Assembly: GCA_018267955.1 (NCBI GenBank)
Contig: JAFDXL010000002.1
Span: 1-64,000, forward strand
Source of the DNA: Bacteroidota bacterium
GTDB taxonomy: Bacteria; Bacteroidota; Bacteroidia; Chitinophagales; Chitinophagaceae
DNA: 64,000 bases
Reading direction: 5' to 3'
Shown: in pieces, positions 32,035-39,555 of the stretch
How the letters are laid out: the number at the start of each line of letters is the position of its first letter
How positions within the stretch are numbered: position 1 is the first letter of the stretch
Notes under the pieces: generated by a model
Database searches by the model: none
Told to the model about the DNA's origin: nothing
The model's input: only the letters and a program-made list of their open reading frames with translations
Program-made: the position numbers and the translations under genes

Positions 32035-32073
32035 AAACAAACAGAGGCTATTCAAAGGCCTCTGTTTGTTTTA
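32035..32073. terminator. Bidirectional terminator between the 59-aa gene and phhA
   Basis: A perfect 14-bp stem AAACAAACAGAGGC / GCCTCTGTTTGTTT has a 9-nt loop. T-rich sequence lies at both 3' ends, so it can serve the rightward small gene and the leftward phhA gene, whose stop lies in its right edge. Confidence 0.9.
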
Positions 32074-32817
32074 TATACCGACATATTCTGTAGCAGCGTA
32101 TAATGCTTTTTCTATGCCTGAAAGGCTTTTATACAATTGTTCCGTGCTTTCCATAATAAAATATTTATCCTGCAAAATATCCGTACGATATTCTGTTTGC
32201 ATCATTTTATCCAGATCGAAATCTTCTTTTGTAACTAACGCACTCTTACTATTTAGTGTTTCGCTGAGTGAAGACACAATACCTGCGCCGAATATCCTGG
32301 GATCTCCCCTCTCCTTTATGAGTCCGAATTCGATCGTGAACCAGTAGATACGGCCCAATAAAGCTATCGCATGTGGCATATTTAGCCATTGAAGTGCAAG
32401 CTTACCTATACCTTCCATAAATCCTGCATACGCATCATCCATCAACAAGGGCACATGTCCGAACACATCATGAAACATATCCGGTTCTTCCAGGTAATCC
32501 AGTTCTTCCATGGTTCGTAGCCAGCATGTTGCAGGAAATATCCGTTGTGACAGCAGTGTAAAGAAATCATCCTGTGGCACCAGCTCGGGTACTACTGTTA
32601 ACTGCCAGCCCGTTGCCCTGTACAACCGTTCTGTGGTTTTTCCGAAGTCAGGTATTGCAGCAGCATTGAATCCAATACGGCGAACAGCATCGAGATACAA
32701 TGCTGCGCCGTACTGATGCAGGTATCGCATTTGCCTGTTAAACAAGGCATCCCATACCTTGAAATCTTCCGGTGTATACAGTTCATACACCTGTTGCAGT
32801 GGTTTGTTCCTTTTCAT
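32071..32817 (-). CDS. phhA: Phenylalanine 4-monooxygenase (phenylalanine hydroxylase)
   Basis: The 248-residue bacterial-type aromatic amino acid hydroxylase converts phenylalanine to tyrosine with tetrahydrobiopterin and O2. The non-heme iron ligands are visible: HDVFGH gives H116 and H121, and YWFTIEFG gives E163. The pterin-site stretch VPLLMDDAYAGFMEGIG follows the second His. It lacks the N-terminal regulatory ACT domain of animal enzymes, as expected for bacteria. It is preceded by a leader peptide with four consecutive Tyr codons and a terminator/antiterminator pair, which predicts induction under tyrosine shortage. That implies an anabolic tyrosine-making role rather than only catabolism. 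Confidence 0.95.
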   Translation of the reverse strand: MKRNKPLQQVYELYTPEDFKVWDALFNRQMRYLHQYGAALYLDAVRRIGFNAAAIPDFGKTTERLYRATGWQLTVVPELVPQDDFFTLLSQRIFPATCWLRTMEELDYLEEPDMFHDVFGHVPLLMDDAYAGFMEGIGKLALQWLNMPHAIALLGRIYWFTIEFGLIKERGDPRIFGAGIVSSLSETLNSKSALVTKEDFDLDKMMQTEYRTDILQDKYFIMESTEQLYKSLSGIEKALYAATEYVGI

Positions 32818-32838
32818 AAAATGGAATTTGTGAGAAAT

Positions 32839-32928
32839 AAAAAAGCCCGGTTCCTTTTCGGAACCGGGCCAGTTAGAATATGGTTATATACACGTAGCTG
32901 CTATTCCGAACAATATCGTTTGGAATAG
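32839..32928 (-). promoter_or_regulatory. Tyrosine-type transcription attenuator upstream of phhA
   Basis: Four segments on the minus strand give the classic alternatives. Segment 1, CTATTCC (32922-32928, within the Tyr-Tyr-Ser codons), pairs with segment 2, GGAATAG (32901-32907). TTCGGAA in segment 2 (32904-32910) pairs perfectly with TTCCGAA in segment 3 (32857-32863). Segment 3, GCCCGGTTCC (32860-32869), pairs with segment 4, GGAACCGGGC (32845-32854), followed by six T, forming an intrinsic terminator 22 bp before the phhA ATG. A ribosome stalled at the Tyr codons would cover segment 1, free segment 2 to pair with 3, and prevent termination. The pairings are read directly; the mechanism is by analogy with trp, phe and his attenuators. 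Confidence 0.88.
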
Positions 32929-32987
32929 TAATAGTATACGTTAGACAGTATTTGCGTGCGAGGACTCACTGATGCAATAATAGGCAT
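32901..32987 (-). CDS. Tyr-rich attenuator leader peptide of phhA
   Basis: A 28-codon frame (ATG to TAG) starts 16 bp after the stop of the DinB-like gene. Residues 18-21 are four Tyr in a row (codons TAC TAT TAC TAT), with a fifth Tyr at residue 25, near the end of the frame, exactly where control codons sit in amino-acid attenuators. The Tyr-Tyr-Ser codons overlap segment 1 of the downstream RNA switch, and the stop codon lies in segment 2. The ordinary background of Tyr makes four in a row improbable by chance. No separate TAnnTTTG is seen before it, so it may be read through from the DinB-like gene. Confidence 0.85.
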   Translation of the reverse strand: MPIIASVSPRTQILSNVYYYYSKRYCSE

Positions 32988-33002
32988 TTTTTGTAAATGA
33001 GG

Positions 33003-33494
33003 TTATTTTTCGCAGTATGCACTAAAATCCATAGAAGGCAGCTTAGTTTCGCCCAGTTGGCGAAGCATCGTTATCAGCTGGCCCCGATGATAGGTGTTGT
33101 GATTGCACATATGCTGTATCACCTGCCATACAGCCAGTTTATGGGGTCTTTTCTGGCGATCGTAAAACTGCATAATATGCGTGAATGCACTATCGTCATA
33201 TTGTTTCTCAATAAAATTGATCAGTTCCTCTCCACACTCCTGCCACAATTTGCAGGCATGGGGATAGGGCATTCCCAGGTCGTCTCCTATCCATACAGGG
33301 CTTTCAACCAGCGATAAGCGTTGTAACCAGATATTTTCCGCACCCAAACAGTGATATACCGTCCTTTTTATAGAGGAAAAGCTGCTTACTACCTCTCTAT
33401 CCAGGTGTTCTGTCACCATTCCCAGCGTCAGGTCTATCATCTTTTTATTGGCCCATAAATTATATCTGGCATATTGTAATAATATCTCTTTCAT
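33003..33494 (-). CDS. DinB-family four-helix protein
   Basis: The 163-residue protein has the DinB fold: four helices with a metal-binding triad, visible as TVYHCLGAENIWLQRL in helix 2 and IQHMCNHNTYHRGQL in helix 4 (the HxxxH and downstream His). Members bind a divalent metal, and some are thiol-dependent S-transferases; the substrate here is unknown. It is divergent from the trans-sulfuration gene across 43 bp, and the phhA leader begins just behind its stop, so it may share transcription with phhA. Confidence 0.85.
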   Translation of the reverse strand: MKEILLQYARYNLWANKKMIDLTLGMVTEHLDREVVSSFSSIKRTVYHCLGAENIWLQRLSLVESPVWIGDDLGMPYPHACKLWQECGEELINFIEKQYDDSAFTHIMQFYDRQKRPHKLAVWQVIQHMCNHNTYHRGQLITMLRQLGETKLPSMDFSAYCEK

Positions 33495-33504
33495 TCTATA
33501 AGCT

Positions 33505-33512
33505 TAACTTTG
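33505..33512 (+). promoter_or_regulatory. -7 element of the trans-sulfuration enzyme gene
   Basis: TAACTTTG followed by CG matches TAnnTTTG and lies 25 bp before the ATG at 33538. Confidence 0.5.
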
Positions 33513-33537
33513 CGAAGCTAAATTAACGATCATTCTA

Positions 33538-34761
33538 ATGAGTGAAGCAAACAATTCAAAGGGATTTGAAACCCTTTGTATCCACGGCGGGCATGTAGCC
33601 GAAAGCAACAGGGCACATCTTACGCCTATTTATGCTACCAGCACTTACACTTTCGACACGGCAGAACAGGGGATTGCGGTCTTTAAGAACGAAGAAAAAG
33701 GCTATATCTACGGACGCTTCGGTAACCCAACCATTAACGAAGTAGAAGATAAAATAGCAATGCTGGAGGCCTACGGTTTGAAAAATGAGGATGGCAGTCC
33801 TTTACAACTAAAAGCGATCCTGCATGCATCGGGCATGGCTGCGATCACTACAATGCTGCTGGGTAACCTGAAAGCCGGAGATATGATCATTACCCATAAA
33901 TCACTTTACGGTGGCACCCAAGAGATGATCGATAAGATATTACCCAACCTGGATATTGAAACGGTAATTGTAGATTTCCATGACCTAAACCTGGTAGCTG
34001 AAACCATAAAGGCAAATGCTTCTATACGCATGATGTATATAGAAACACCTGCAAACCCTACATTGCAATGTGTGGATATGGAACAACTGGCGGCATTGGG
34101 CAAACAACATGACCTGATCGTATGCGCAGACAATACATTTGCAACGCCTTACCTGCAACAACCTTTTAAATACGCTGTAGATTTTGTGATGCACTCTACC
34201 ACCAAGTTCCTGAACGGACATGGAACTGCAGTAGGTGGTATTCTTATAGGTCGCGACCAGGAGAAAATGAATACTACTGTTACCAAGGCACATAGATTAC
34301 TTGGAGGGAATAGTAATGCATTCGAAGCGTTTCTGCTGAATAACGGACTACGCACTTTTAGCCTGCGCATGGAACGCCATTGCAGTAATGCTGAAAAGGT
34401 AGCCAATTTCCTGGCACAACACCCGGCGATAAAAACAGTAAATTATCTTGGTTTAAGCTCACATCCCGATCATGCCATATGTAAAAAGCAGATGAAGCAC
34501 GCAGGTGCTGTATTAAGCTTTGAGCTGAAGGGCGGATTTGAAGCAGGTGTTGCCTTCATGAATAAACTCAAACTTTGCATCAATGCAGTATCGCTCGGCA
34601 CATGCGATACCTTGTTATCTCACCCGGCATCAACAACACACGTGGGTGTACCAAGAGATAAGCGCATTGAATTTGGCATCACAGACGGCTTGATACGCAT
34701 GAGCGTGGGTATTGAGACTGTGGACGATATTATTAACGACTTAACACAAGCATTACAATAA
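33538..34761 (+). CDS. Cys/Met-metabolism PLP enzyme (methionine gamma-lyase-like)
   Basis: The 407-residue protein is a cystathionine gamma-synthase/lyase-family PLP enzyme. It has IYATSTYTF and [11 protein letters not shown] near the N-terminus, SLYGGTQEM (Tyr stacks on the ring), [13 protein letters not shown] and the PLP lysine in [11 protein letters not shown] (K223). Family members catalyse beta- or gamma-elimination or replacement on sulfur amino acids. [17 protein letters not shown] near the C-terminus is typical of lyases and O-succinylhomoserine/methionine gamma-lyases. Which substrate applies is not resolvable here. The thiolase gene starts 1 bp after its stop, so the two form an operon, consistent with degrading methionine to 2-oxobutyrate. 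Confidence 0.88.
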
Positions 34762-35999: not shown

Positions 36000-37010
36000 T
36001 TGAGAAAGATAGACATACACACGCATATAATGCCCGAAAACATACCCAACTGGTTTGAGAAGTTTGGGTATGGAGAGTTCATAAGGCTGGAACATCACAA
36101 GCCTTGCTGTGCCAAGATGATCAAGGGCGACAAAGTGTTTCGGGAAATAGAGGAAAACTGCTGGGATCCTCATGCCAGGATGAAGGAAATGGATATGACA
36201 GAGGTATCTGTACAAGTGCTGTCAACCATCCCCGTTCTGTTCAATTATTTTGCCAAGCCTGAGCATGGTTACGAAACGTCGCGTTTCTTCAACGATCATA
36301 TCGCGCAGTGCGTAGCTGATAATCCTAACCGATTCATAGGCTTAGGCACTGTTCCCATGCAGGATATCTACCTGTCCATTCGCGAAATGGAGCGTTGCGT
36401 TACAGAACTAAAAATGCCTGGGGTCGAGATAGGTTCCAACATCAATGGCAAAAACCTGAGTGATCCGTATTTCGATCCATTTTGGAAAGCTGCAGAAGAA
36501 TTAGGATGCTGTCTTTTCATCCACCCTTGGGAAATGATGGGCGAAAAAGATATGTCCAAATACTGGCTTCCATGGTTGGTGGGCATGCCGGCAGAAACAG
36601 CCCGCGCCATCAGCTCTATGATATTTGGCGGTGTATTTGAACGCTTCCCTAATCTGCGTGTCTCCTTTGCACATGGCGGCGGTAGCTTCCCGTTCACTAT
36701 CGGCCGTATAGAGCATGGCTTTAATGTTCGCCCCGATCTTGTTGCTATCGACAATAATGTAAATCCGCGCAATTACCTGGGTAAATTCTGGATAGATGCC
36801 CTGGTGCACGACCCGAAGGCACTGAAGTATATTGTTGACGTGATGGGCGATACAAAAGTATGTATGGGTAGCGACTACCCATTCCCTCTTGGTGAGCATC
36901 ATCCTGGCAAACTGATAGAAAGCATGGAGGATTTTTCGGCCACGGTTACCGAGCAACTGCTGTACAAGAATGCAATGGACTGGATGAACCTGCGGTACGA
37001 TAAATTTTAA
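36000..37010 (+). CDS. 2-amino-3-carboxymuconate-6-semialdehyde decarboxylase-like amidohydrolase
   Basis: The 336-residue metal-dependent amidohydrolase closely resembles ACMSD of the kynurenine pathway. It begins KIDIHTH (first metal His pair) and carries CWDPHARMKEMD, QVLSTIPVLF, FIGLGTVPMQ, CLFIHPWEMMG, KYWLPWLVGMPAETARAI, VSFAHGGGSFPFT and GSDYPFPLGEHHPGKLI, the metal ligands and substrate stretches of that family. ACMSD removes CO2 from the tryptophan-derived semialdehyde and diverts it from NAD synthesis. No kynureninase or 3-hydroxyanthranilate dioxygenase is nearby. No ATG precedes KIDIHTH; TTG at 36000 is used, and TTG at 35994 is an alternative. Confidence 0.88.
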   Translation: MRKIDIHTHIMPENIPNWFEKFGYGEFIRLEHHKPCCAKMIKGDKVFREIEENCWDPHARMKEMDMTEVSVQVLSTIPVLFNYFAKPEHGYETSRFFNDHIAQCVADNPNRFIGLGTVPMQDIYLSIREMERCVTELKMPGVEIGSNINGKNLSDPYFDPFWKAAEELGCCLFIHPWEMMGEKDMSKYWLPWLVGMPAETARAISSMIFGGVFERFPNLRVSFAHGGGSFPFTIGRIEHGFNVRPDLVAIDNNVNPRNYLGKFWIDALVHDPKALKYIVDVMGDTKVCMGSDYPFPLGEHHPGKLIESMEDFSATVTEQLLYKNAMDWMNLRYDKF

Positions 37011-37058
37011 AAAAATAGCTCCCCGTCATTTGGTTGCAGGATAATGATACGGGGAGCT
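37010..37058 (-). terminator. Terminator between the decarboxylase and the barrel protein
   Basis: The stem AGCTCCCCGT / ACGGGGAGCT (37017-37026 with 37049-37058) encloses a 22-nt loop with extra pairing CATT/AATG. Reading leftward it runs into ATTTTTTTA, so it mainly serves the leftward gene; the rightward decarboxylase ends just before it. Confidence 0.8.
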
Positions 37059-37110
37059 TCGCTTCAACTTATATGCTGTGGAAACAGCTATACTTAAACG
37101 TATGAAAAGG

Positions 37111-39555
37111 CTACGCACTGCCTGAGGATGCCCGTCTCTTAAGGTCTTCGGCACCACCACTATGCCTGCGTACCGGAGATACACTTTTGCTGCCGAAACG
37201 ATAGACAAACGATAAAGTGACTTGCCGGGTATCTCTTTGCGCCACGAACGACTCTGTGTAATTGTTATATACAGATGTAGCTCTTGGATAACTCCTCCAG
37301 AAAATATCCGTGGCATTTAGTTTTATGGTTGCACGCTTATCAAAAAGATTCTTTTGAATACCGGCATTAAGATTCCATGTAGGCAGCAAGTTCATATAAC
37401 CATATATCTGCCTTGACTGATAATTGAACCCAAGTTCTGCAGACCAGTCTTTACCAAGTATCAGGCTGTTACTGGTATTTATATCAACCGTTACCGTTCC
37501 TGCGTTCAGCACAGTATTAGCAATATCGCCATGAAACTCGCTGTAGTAGCAGTTAAACTGTGTAACGTTTGTCCACCATTTACAAATTGCAAATTGATAC
37601 GTTCCGCTGAGGTCAAAGAACACCTGGCTGGTAAGATTCTTATCTGTTTGTACCGTAACTCGCTTCTGGTTGGTGTCGTCACTGGGTTGTATCACTTCTG
37701 TTATCGGATTGGTCAGATAACTATATAGGAAGGTAGTAACGAAACGCTGCTTGTAGGTATGCGATAGTTCAATGTTGTATATCAACTCCGGCAATAAGAA
37801 TGGATATCCTGTTCTATAAGTGCTTGGGTCTAGATAATATTTAAAAGGATTGAGCTGTTCATAATTCGGCCTGTTGATACGCCTGCTTAGTGTCAGGCCC
37901 AGGTCATTGCTGGCATTGATATGGCGTTGTACCGCGAAGCTTGGGAACAGTTGCGTATAGTTACGATCAAAGGATTGGTTGTTTATCTTTTGTTCTCCTT
38001 TTGCAATGGTCTGCTCTACTCTCACGCCTATTTGCGTGCTCCATTTTGTCCAGTCTTTGTGCATATTAAGGTAAACTGCATTGATATTCTCCTTATACAC
38101 AAAATGGTTACTCTTCGTAATATCAAACAGGTTCCCTCCCATGCTACGATCAAAGAACTGCACATCATTATCCTGCGTTACATAGCTAAGCTTAACACCT
38201 CCGTCTAGCTGTAAGCTATTTTTAAGTGGATGTGTATAATCTGCTTTGAACGAACGTATCGTAGTTAATCCCGCCAGGTCTCCATGCAAAAGATACTGTG
38301 GCAAATAATCTTGCCCGGACACATCCAGATACCTGGTTGTGAAATCCTGCAAACGCTTTGCATTAAAGGCACCATAGTCCACATCTACAGACAGTTCTTT
38401 ACCGGTGCTATCAAATTTGTGGCGCATATTCAGATTCAGGCCATAGTTGGTGCTATGGTTATCAGAATTGTTAAGCGTAGTGAAGTAAGATTGTATCTCT
38501 TTGTCAGACCCCAATACTTTTGAAAAATTATCACCATCCACTTTATACCAGTTTACATCAGTATTAGCAGCAATGCCAATCGTCGTATTAGACGAGAGGC
38601 TATAATCTACACTCATATTTCCTGAAGCGAGATTATACCCAAACACACCGTTATTGTCCTGGTCATAGGCATTCTGCAATTTATCTCCATTATAAAAGCT
38701 CCTGTAAAGTGTAAGATGATTAAATCCATATCTGTCTGCATAGTTGACACCTACATTTACAGTCCATTTTTTATTGCGATAATTGATGCTAGTTCCACCA
38801 CCAAATTTCGGATAGATGCCTTGTGTATAAAAGCAACTAAGCGACCCATTGAAGCCATAGCGTTTATCCTTCTTCGTTTTTATATTGATGATACCGGCAG
38901 TGCCTGCAGCATCATATTTTGCGGATGGGTTAGTAATGATCTCTATTTGTTCTATGGAAGAAGAAGACATGCTTTTAAGCAGGCTGGCAAGGTCTGTCCC
39001 CTGCATAACGGTCTTTTTGCCGTCTATCATTACAAATACCCCCTGCTTACCTTTCAGGCTTATGTTATCGTTTTGATCTACATGCACTCCAGGAGATCGT
39101 GATAAAACATCCATTACAGACGACCCGGCATTAACAATACTGTTCTCCACATTCACCACGAGCTTGTCGGCCTTAATTTCTATAAGTGGCTTTTGCGCTC
39201 TTACCGATACTTCCTTTAAAGCATTGGATTTATCTTTTAGGCTAATGGTCTTTACCTTTACCTCGTTATTGTTTAATGTTATCGCTTCAGACGTATACCC
39301 TTCGTATATCGTAGAATTTACTTTAACCAGATAATTTCCGTTTGGTATTTCATCTATCGAAAACTTGCCACTATCGTTAGTGATGTCTGCCTTTATAAGT
39401 TTATTATCAGTCGCATCCAGAATAAGAACGTTTACGCCAGCCAATGGTTCGTTTTGTACATCGGTTACTTTACCTGATATTTTACCATCACGTGCATATA
39501 AATGAACACTGACTACAAAGAGCAAAATCATCGATAAAAACGCAGATCGGATCAT
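37111..39555 (-). CDS. TonB-dependent-receptor-like outer-membrane barrel protein
   Basis: The 814-residue protein has a signal peptide (MIRSAFLSMILLFVVSVHLYA), then a carboxypeptidase-regulatory beta-sandwich (GKISGKVTDVQNEPLAGVNVLIL, residues ~25-110). A short plug domain follows (SSVMDVLSRSPGVHVDQND, SIEQIEIITNPSAKYDAAG) and then a 22-strand-type barrel ending in VTLSFVYRF and a ~30-residue basic tail. It belongs to the outer-membrane barrel family related to SusC/TonB receptors, for import of an unknown substrate. The N-terminal 24 codons of the longer reading frame are excluded because the signal peptide starts at 39555. A paralogue lies 6 kb away. Confidence 0.88.
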   Translation of the reverse strand: MIRSAFLSMILLFVVSVHLYARDGKISGKVTDVQNEPLAGVNVLILDATDNKLIKADITNDSGKFSIDEIPNGNYLVKVNSTIYEGYTSEAITLNNNEVKVKTISLKDKSNALKEVSVRAQKPLIEIKADKLVVNVENSIVNAGSSVMDVLSRSPGVHVDQNDNISLKGKQGVFVMIDGKKTVMQGTDLASLLKSMSSSSIEQIEIITNPSAKYDAAGTAGIINIKTKKDKRYGFNGSLSCFYTQGIYPKFGGGTSINYRNKKWTVNVGVNYADRYGFNHLTLYRSFYNGDKLQNAYDQDNNGVFGYNLASGNMSVDYSLSSNTTIGIAANTDVNWYKVDGDNFSKVLGSDKEIQSYFTTLNNSDNHSTNYGLNLNMRHKFDSTGKELSVDVDYGAFNAKRLQDFTTRYLDVSGQDYLPQYLLHGDLAGLTTIRSFKADYTHPLKNSLQLDGGVKLSYVTQDNDVQFFDRSMGGNLFDITKSNHFVYKENINAVYLNMHKDWTKWSTQIGVRVEQTIAKGEQKINNQSFDRNYTQLFPSFAVQRHINASNDLGLTLSRRINRPNYEQLNPFKYYLDPSTYRTGYPFLLPELIYNIELSHTYKQRFVTTFLYSYLTNPITEVIQPSDDTNQKRVTVQTDKNLTSQVFFDLSGTYQFAICKWWTNVTQFNCYYSEFHGDIANTVLNAGTVTVDINTSNSLILGKDWSAELGFNYQSRQIYGYMNLLPTWNLNAGIQKNLFDKRATIKLNATDIFWRSYPRATSVYNNYTESFVAQRDTRQVTLSFVYRFGSKSVSPVRRHSGGAEDLKRRASSGSA

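Follow-up and report, generated by a model that had tools for sequence, protein, structure and literature searches.

What controls phhA, the gene for phenylalanine 4-monooxygenase, in a bacterium of the Chitinophagaceae (phylum Bacteroidota)? The window, by which we mean the whole 64,000-nt stretch analysed (positions 1 to 64,000 of contig JAFDXL010000002.1, GenBank assembly GCA_018267955.1), carries phhA on its minus strand, preceded by a short frame with a run of tyrosine codons and by a hairpin, which raises the question of whether tyrosine supply governs the gene. We conclude with high confidence that a ribosome-mediated transcription attenuator of the trp type, sensing charged tRNA-Tyr, controls phhA.

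A tyrosine-codon leader, three helices and a terminator precede phhA

All parts described here lie on the minus strand. The phhA product (32071-32817, 248 aa) matched NF008877, the NCBIfam model of phenylalanine 4-monooxygenase, at 249.3 bits, a narrow pass over the cut-off of 247, and scored above the cut-off of PF00351; with TIGR01267 it reached 244.5 bits, under the cut-off of 264.75. The leader peptide ORF (32901-32987), with homologous leaders in relatives, consists of 28 codons and the stop codon TAG and encodes MPIIASVSPRTQILSNVYYYYSKRYCSE. Its control codons Tyr18-Tyr21 (TAC TAT TAC TAT, 32925-32936) and the further tyrosine codon Tyr25 (32913-32915) were read from the sequence. Segment 1, CTATTCC (32922-32928), overlaps codons Tyr20-Ser22; segment 2, TTCGGAATAG (32901-32910), includes the leader stop codon; and segment 3, GTTCCGAA (32857-32864), the antiterminator partner of segment 2, sits in the 5′ arm and loop of a GC-rich intrinsic terminator (32839-32870, -22.7 kcal/mol). 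Helix 1:2 pairs CTATTCC with GGAATAG (32901-32907), inside which the stop codon lies, and helix 2:3 pairs TTCGGAAT (32903-32910) with segment 3. The terminator, helix 3:4, is formed by the arms GCCCGGTTCC (32860-32869) and GGAACCGGGC (32845-32854), followed by T6 (32839-32844) and, at a distance of 21 nt, by the phhA start. A first-pass annotation of this DNA had reported the 28-codon frame, Tyr18-Tyr21, Tyr25 and a terminator before phhA, all of which we confirmed base by base. The three helices that it called mutually exclusive are likewise present, but the exclusivity is looser than claimed, since 1:2 and 3:4 are compatible and 2:3 alone excludes both.

The leader folds at -43.8 kcal/mol, compared with a mean of -28.5 (sd 3.5) for shuffled sequences, none of which was as low in 200 trials. 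The terminator is the sole one detected in 32780-33560, where shuffles average 0.6. From the Tyr run to the start of segment 2 there are 14 nt, and the median for the 48 leaders described below is 11 nt (range 0-22); this spacing is the reach of a ribosome, and it would let a stalled ribosome mask segment 1 and not segment 2. Every defining feature of an attenuator that is testable here, the promoter excepted, is thus present: a codon-rich ORF, an intrinsic terminator, a complementary antiterminator, ribosome spacing, and a gene predicted to make the sensed amino acid.

The cycle that we infer, from transcription through the leader and its translation to stalling, induction and the substrate of the enzyme, would run as follows. 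When Tyr-tRNA is ample, the ribosome would pass YYYY and reach the TAG inside segment 2, where it would keep that segment unpaired, and the 3:4 terminator would halt transcription before phhA. When Tyr-tRNA is scarce, the ribosome would stall on codons 18-21 and cover segment 1; segment 2 would then pair with segment 3, the terminator could not form, phhA would be made and phenylalanine would be converted to tyrosine. In relatives with hisH and hisA/hisF behind phhA, the same device would operate with Tyr and His codons.

The Bacteroidota -7 promoter element has the consensus TAnnTTTG. A perfect copy was found before 20 of the 48 leaders, versus 4.4% of mononucleotide shuffles. The element often stands 4-10 nt ahead of the leader ATG (L005, L007, L050, L067, L107 and others). 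Judged by these sequences, transcription of many leaders may begin just short of the start codon, so that the leader peptide would be made from an mRNA that is itself nearly leaderless. The element is missing ahead of the leader in the window, the best site agreeing at 3 of 6 positions, and a sigma-70 scan upstream of this leader gave chance-level sites only; the promoter is the weakest link for the window's own attenuator.

Leaders at other phhA genes keep, on average, a matched antiterminator

Leaders were sought at 105 phhA loci, a set composed of the loci of the window's family and 80 named loci (the best 80 of 590 relatives), minus five duplicates. The family comprised 294 genomes, taking in Taibaiella sp. 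KBW10 (Chitinophagaceae according to NCBI); phhA was matched in 39 of them, in some cases weakly within longer proteins, and a Tyr-run leader with a terminator was present at 11 of the 30 family phhA loci read upstream. A detector blind to amino acids accepted any ATG-initiated ORF of 15-32 codons with its stop 0-110 nt before a terminator, which itself had to end at most 260 nt from phhA, and where a locus offered several ORFs the one densest in relevant residues was chosen. It returned an ORF at 49 of the 105 Bacteroidota loci, 48 of them rich in Tyr, His or both. The exception, L022, was taken as the end of an upstream gene; it is counted in the first His test below and was dropped afterwards. 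One Tyr leader with a GTG start (L013, genome G204), missed by this ATG-only detector and by the covariance model below, is counted among the 11 family leaders.

Stalled ribosomes might also act on phhA through translation or Rho and not through the intrinsic terminator, given that reinitiation after leader ORFs has been proposed for many bacteria (PMC4833913). We regard this as very unlikely, since all detected leaders have a hairpin followed by a T run (itself a condition of detection) and the 5′ arm of the terminator fits segment 2 specifically. In the 48 leaders, segment 2 fits its own segment 3 better than it fits those of other loci (0 of 5000 permutations), and in 21 cluster representatives the own 2:3 duplex came to -13.4 kcal/mol versus -10.4 when permuted (0 of 20000). 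This specificity is an average effect: 20% of unrelated partners suit the median leader at least as well as its own, and for six of the 48 this share rises to half or more. Against dinucleotide shuffles, the 2:3 duplex was superior (p<0.05) in 24 of 48 leaders, with p=0.027 for the window's own; it is broken in L009 and L010. The helix 1:2 region folded better than shuffles in just 8 of 48 (window p=0.065).

Among the 11 close-family leaders, all cells (100%) were paired in helix 1:2, a level that 20 of 500 shuffles reached, and 93.2% in helix 2:3 (210 of 500). Covariation in 2:3 among these relatives was not above that of shuffled columns (131 of 500), since there is little variation in this helix. 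In the alignment of orthologous phhA leaders that had been suggested as a check on the attenuation logic, Tyr runs are kept and complementarity between families is specific, but covariation within the family does not exceed shuffles. The logic itself is supported by Tyr runs together with complementary 2:3 and 3:4 helices in several Bacteroidota lineages. A covariance model built from the 11 leaders matched 10 of the 294 family genomes at 78-98 bits, all at phhA leaders and once per genome, with the next match at 40.5 bits. Inspection of 20 weaker matches revealed eight Val/Ile leaders, four Phe/Tyr leaders, four sequences before pnp-like genes and four unclear cases, the genes being named from sequence.

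The ORF could instead encode a conserved functional micropeptide, with the RNA structure incidental, a reading that we find even harder to accept. YYYYSxRYCxE is common to close relatives, and MNPTPRTFVHHS (or nearly so) to Algoriphagus-type leaders, but helix arms 1 and 2 lie where the common C-terminus is encoded, and across families the peptides diverge in sequence and length outside the Tyr/His block while segment 2/3 complementarity is kept.

The tyrosine run is specific to phhA among neighbouring genes

A separate rule of three Tyr in five codons, with non-ATG starts allowed, was passed by 35 of the 105 phhA genes and by 1 of the 597 other genes found at these loci; when upstreams with a terminator are counted alone, the figures were 35 of 53 for phhA and 1 of 31 for the others. 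In this set L082 and L095 had less than 400 nt upstream, and the upstream of L088 contains N. The lone non-phhA gene to pass (L049) is the first of an aminotransferase-tyrA-phhA operon, in which the aminotransferase and tyrA are presumed from our reading of the sequence, and PF02153 matches the L049 genome.

These counts bear on a simpler explanation, in which the hairpin does no more than end transcription of the upstream gene and the tyrosine ORF is a frame open by chance. That gene (163 aa) runs in the same direction and stops 15 nt short of the leader start; an NCBIfam search with it gave no match, and we take it to be DinB-like from its sequence. TAYTAYTAYTAY occurs once in the window, where 0.29 occurrences are expected, and 24 of 100 shuffles have at least one. 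The Tyr run by itself is not significant; the combination of elements and their conservation are. Leader and terminator recur at phhA with differing upstream genes, and the Tyr rule singles out phhA. Conservation of the leader at phhA led us to reject the chance frame with an ordinary terminator, which we rate as extremely improbable.

The leader extends beyond the family of the window. In a phylum sample, phhA was matched in 133 of 392 genomes, in many inside longer proteins, and 27 of the 29 loci fetched beyond the window's own were readable, seven with a leader (the L269 genome being the L138 genome). Leader-bearing loci L146 and L155 come from one more family of the same class. Such a switch is optional, and many phhA genes are without a leader of this kind. 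None was found at the six phhA loci adjoining HPPD or HGD (L019, L023, L024, L086, L100 and L111). The his, trp, aroG, HPPD and HGD genes near phhA are taken as such from reading cluster representatives; HPPD beside phhA in G122 (L023) was confirmed by a profile match. Four congeners of the window's organism (G094, G169, G221 and G265) gave no phhA match and no TyrA above cut-off; phhA may have entered the window's species together with its attenuator, or may have been lost from the congeners.

Leader codons follow the content of the operon

At 36 of the 105 loci, phhA is followed by his genes (hisH, hisA/hisF), often after trp genes and DAHP synthase. A leader was detected at 23 of the 36 and absent from the other 13, and all 23 leaders mix Tyr and His, as in HNHYYYYH, YHYHYYH, HHSYYH and, in Anditalea, SHHHHS with a single Tyr. 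The Anditalea leader (L068, MKKKIYLNISHHHHSVQG), with HHHH and one Tyr, gives the impression that Tyr sensing was lost; the Anditalea genome has TyrA. His occurred in the densest eight-codon window of 23 of 23 leaders with his genes versus 7 of 26 without (L022 counted; Fisher 3.5e-8). A second set comprised 20 new leaders from 196 genomes of another family, together with L146 and L155; 30 loci of that family were read, 25 had a leader, and two of the five leaderless loci had his genes. Here His was found in 13 of 13 leaders with his genes versus 2 of 9 without (Fisher 2.1e-4). Across 70 leaders, the control window carried two His codons or more in 34 of the 36 whose operon has his genes and in 0 of the other 34; one His codon or more was present in all 36 and in 8 of 34, respectively. 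L134-L137 were left out of the 70: L134 is L010 again, L135 repeats the leader of L048, and L136 and L137 are Algoriphagus-type leaders with his genes.

Shared ancestry partly inflates these counts. On the phhA tree, the his arrangement behind phhA changes six times, and supported branches offer three independent pairs, too few for significance in an independent-pairs test of his genes against His codons. With at least two His codons, an average of 2.7 of the 3 pairs went the same way, and with at least one, 1.4 of 3; none went the opposite way. Within the genus of Marivirga, leaders read HYYYYH or HYYYYYH with his genes and TYYYYYQ or TYYYYYL without. From its codons, the Tyr+His leader of phhA-his operons probably responds to shortage of either amino acid.

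Leaders of like architecture precede other amino-acid genes. Phe+Tyr leaders (e.g. FYFFFFYF) stand before pheA at 18 of 19 loci of the window's family (L193-L211), and Val/Ile-rich leaders with terminators stand at eight family loci (L174, L176, L178, L180, L184 and L187-L189) before what we take, by naming from sequence, to be ilvD-like and ilvE-like genes. A further Phe+Tyr leader (L191) precedes a DAHP synthase-like gene. His leaders before hisG were present in all seven family genomes having hisG, of eight searched, including the window's genome, where the His leader MLFNQLHHHHFHTSHRRA and a terminator precede hisG (L261, G000 contig C1, hisG 36880-37344); none was found in the 20 genomes behind named loci (Algoriphagus, Echinicola, Marivirga, Roseivirga and kin). 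Leader codons thus track operon content, as Tyr, Tyr+His, Phe+Tyr or His, a dependence that goes beyond anything in the first-pass annotation.

Sensing of queuosine or pterin, for which one may cite the Tyr/His mixing of many leaders (both being NAY codons read by queuosine-modified tRNAs) and the facts that PhhA is a pterin enzyme and that queuosine synthesis shares GTP cyclohydrolase, is scarcely credible and was set aside, because His codons, when at least two are counted, follow his genes and because Phe, which is non-NAY, is mixed with Tyr before pheA.

Genomes with the tyrosine leader and no his genes behind phhA mostly lack the usual route to tyrosine

The 11 family genomes with the leader, among them the window's, gave no prephenate dehydrogenase (TyrA; PF02153 above cut-off), nor did 14 of the 15 named genomes in which a leader is present and phhA is not followed by his genes. 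TyrA was therefore absent from 25 of 26 genomes of this kind overall. Of the 33 phhA genomes without a leader that were tested, 13 had no TyrA (family, 9 of 19; chosen named genomes, 4 of 14); Fisher's test gave 4.7e-6, ignoring relatedness, and 0.004 for the family alone. The named-genome test covered all 15 genomes with a leader and no his genes, that of L049 too, 20 of 23 with his genes (L048, L056 and L079 left out, and L063 likewise outside the test) and 14 of the 37 leaderless named loci, chosen by us. Prephenate dehydratase (PheA; PF00800) was absent from 11 of 11 family and 12 of 15 named leader genomes (23 of 26), found in all 12 of the phhA-his leader genomes tested, and absent from all six leaderless family genomes without TyrA that were tested, of nine such genomes. 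All 30 family genomes with phhA have chorismate synthase.

With TyrA and mostly PheA missing, PhhA therefore looks like the tyrosine-synthesis enzyme of genomes with a Tyr leader and no his genes behind phhA. The same gene content suggests that the organism of the window cannot make phenylalanine with the usual enzyme and derives its tyrosine from phenylalanine; a non-homologous dehydratase is possible. HPPD scored above cut-off in 26 of the 30 family phhA genomes, and because these include all 11 with the leader, PhhA may additionally feed catabolism. The window's genome (G000) has two HPPD copies (contig C10, 267233-268297 and 295432-296496), on a contig other than that of phhA.

Fitness data for Echinicola vietnamensis indicate that its phenylalanine hydroxylase (PAH) matters in some defined media, and the authors propose a role in tyrosine synthesis (PMC7311316). 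The prediction that phhA is a tyrosine-biosynthesis gene, made at first reading of the window, fits these data as well as the absence of TyrA and PheA, with HPPD also present. In two other Echinicola species (L065 and L072), the leader stands ahead of phhA and his genes, and because phhA precedes his genes there, part of the Echinicola fitness effect could be polar on the downstream his genes. For many Bacteroidota, the leader adds an independent argument that phenylalanine hydroxylase serves to make tyrosine and not only to degrade phenylalanine.

On balance, we favour the view that Bacteroidota possess a modular attenuator whose codons are re-written to match the operon: Tyr for phhA, Tyr+His (a two-input OR) for phhA-his, Phe+Tyr for pheA-tyrA, His for hisG and Val/Ile for ilvD, with the lineage of the window being animal-like in importing phenylalanine and making tyrosine on demand. 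The match between codons and operon could allow a gene's role to be deduced from its leader and offers natural experiments on sensor evolution, for example within Marivirga, and the mixed Tyr/His leader is a testable two-amino-acid input.

Relation to known attenuators

Proteobacterial ribosome-mediated attenuators comprise the trp, his, pheA, ilv and thr leaders. The phhA leader resembles them in its short control-codon ORF, its 1:2, 2:3 and 3:4 logic and its T-run terminator before the first gene, and differs in its Tyr control codon, its phenylalanine hydroxylase target and its phylum. An Rfam scan of the window, T-box included, yielded no family at gathering score, all low-threshold matches lying below; among these, Trp_leader (RF00513) aligns over exactly 32837-32936 at 22.9 bits, below its gathering score of 41. 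Leaders of 12 phhA loci gave none at gathering score, with only rRNA matches, in L055, and seven other leader loci gave none at the gathering threshold. A known Rfam element or T-box was rejected because no score reached that threshold. The model of the Bacteroid-trp RNA (RF01692), which we presume from its name to have a trp target, did not match the window's leader. That RNA is likewise a cis-regulatory RNA of Bacteroidetes (PMC2864571).

According to a 2010 paper, leader-peptide systems were, to the knowledge of its authors, unshown outside Proteobacteria and Actinobacteria, bar ermC and their own Firmicutes case (PMC2965389). A Flavobacterium transcriptome study reports strong clues for leader-peptide attenuation before amino-acid operons, phenylalanine and histidine going unmentioned in the available main text (PMC9723704). 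The biosynthetic PAH of Dyella, Legionella and Echinicola (GapMind, PMC7311316) is likewise a tyrosine-synthesis route, and the available text of that account mentions no attenuator. The first-pass annotation had known of no Tyr-codon attenuator on phenylalanine hydroxylase, and the available text of the literature searched contained no Tyr-codon or phhA attenuator either; Lopatovskaya et al. 2010 and Table S7 of PMC9723704 may hold related predictions. Tyr as the sensed amino acid and phhA as the target would be new for leader-peptide attenuators, as would the Tyr/His form.

The Phe+Tyr pheA leaders of the family share the architecture of the phhA leader but carry Phe and Tyr codons together, and pheA and tyrA were not found in the 11 family genomes with the phhA leader. 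Genome G064, whose leaderless phhA is the most like the window's within the family, has pheA, tyrA and a Phe+Tyr leader before pheA.
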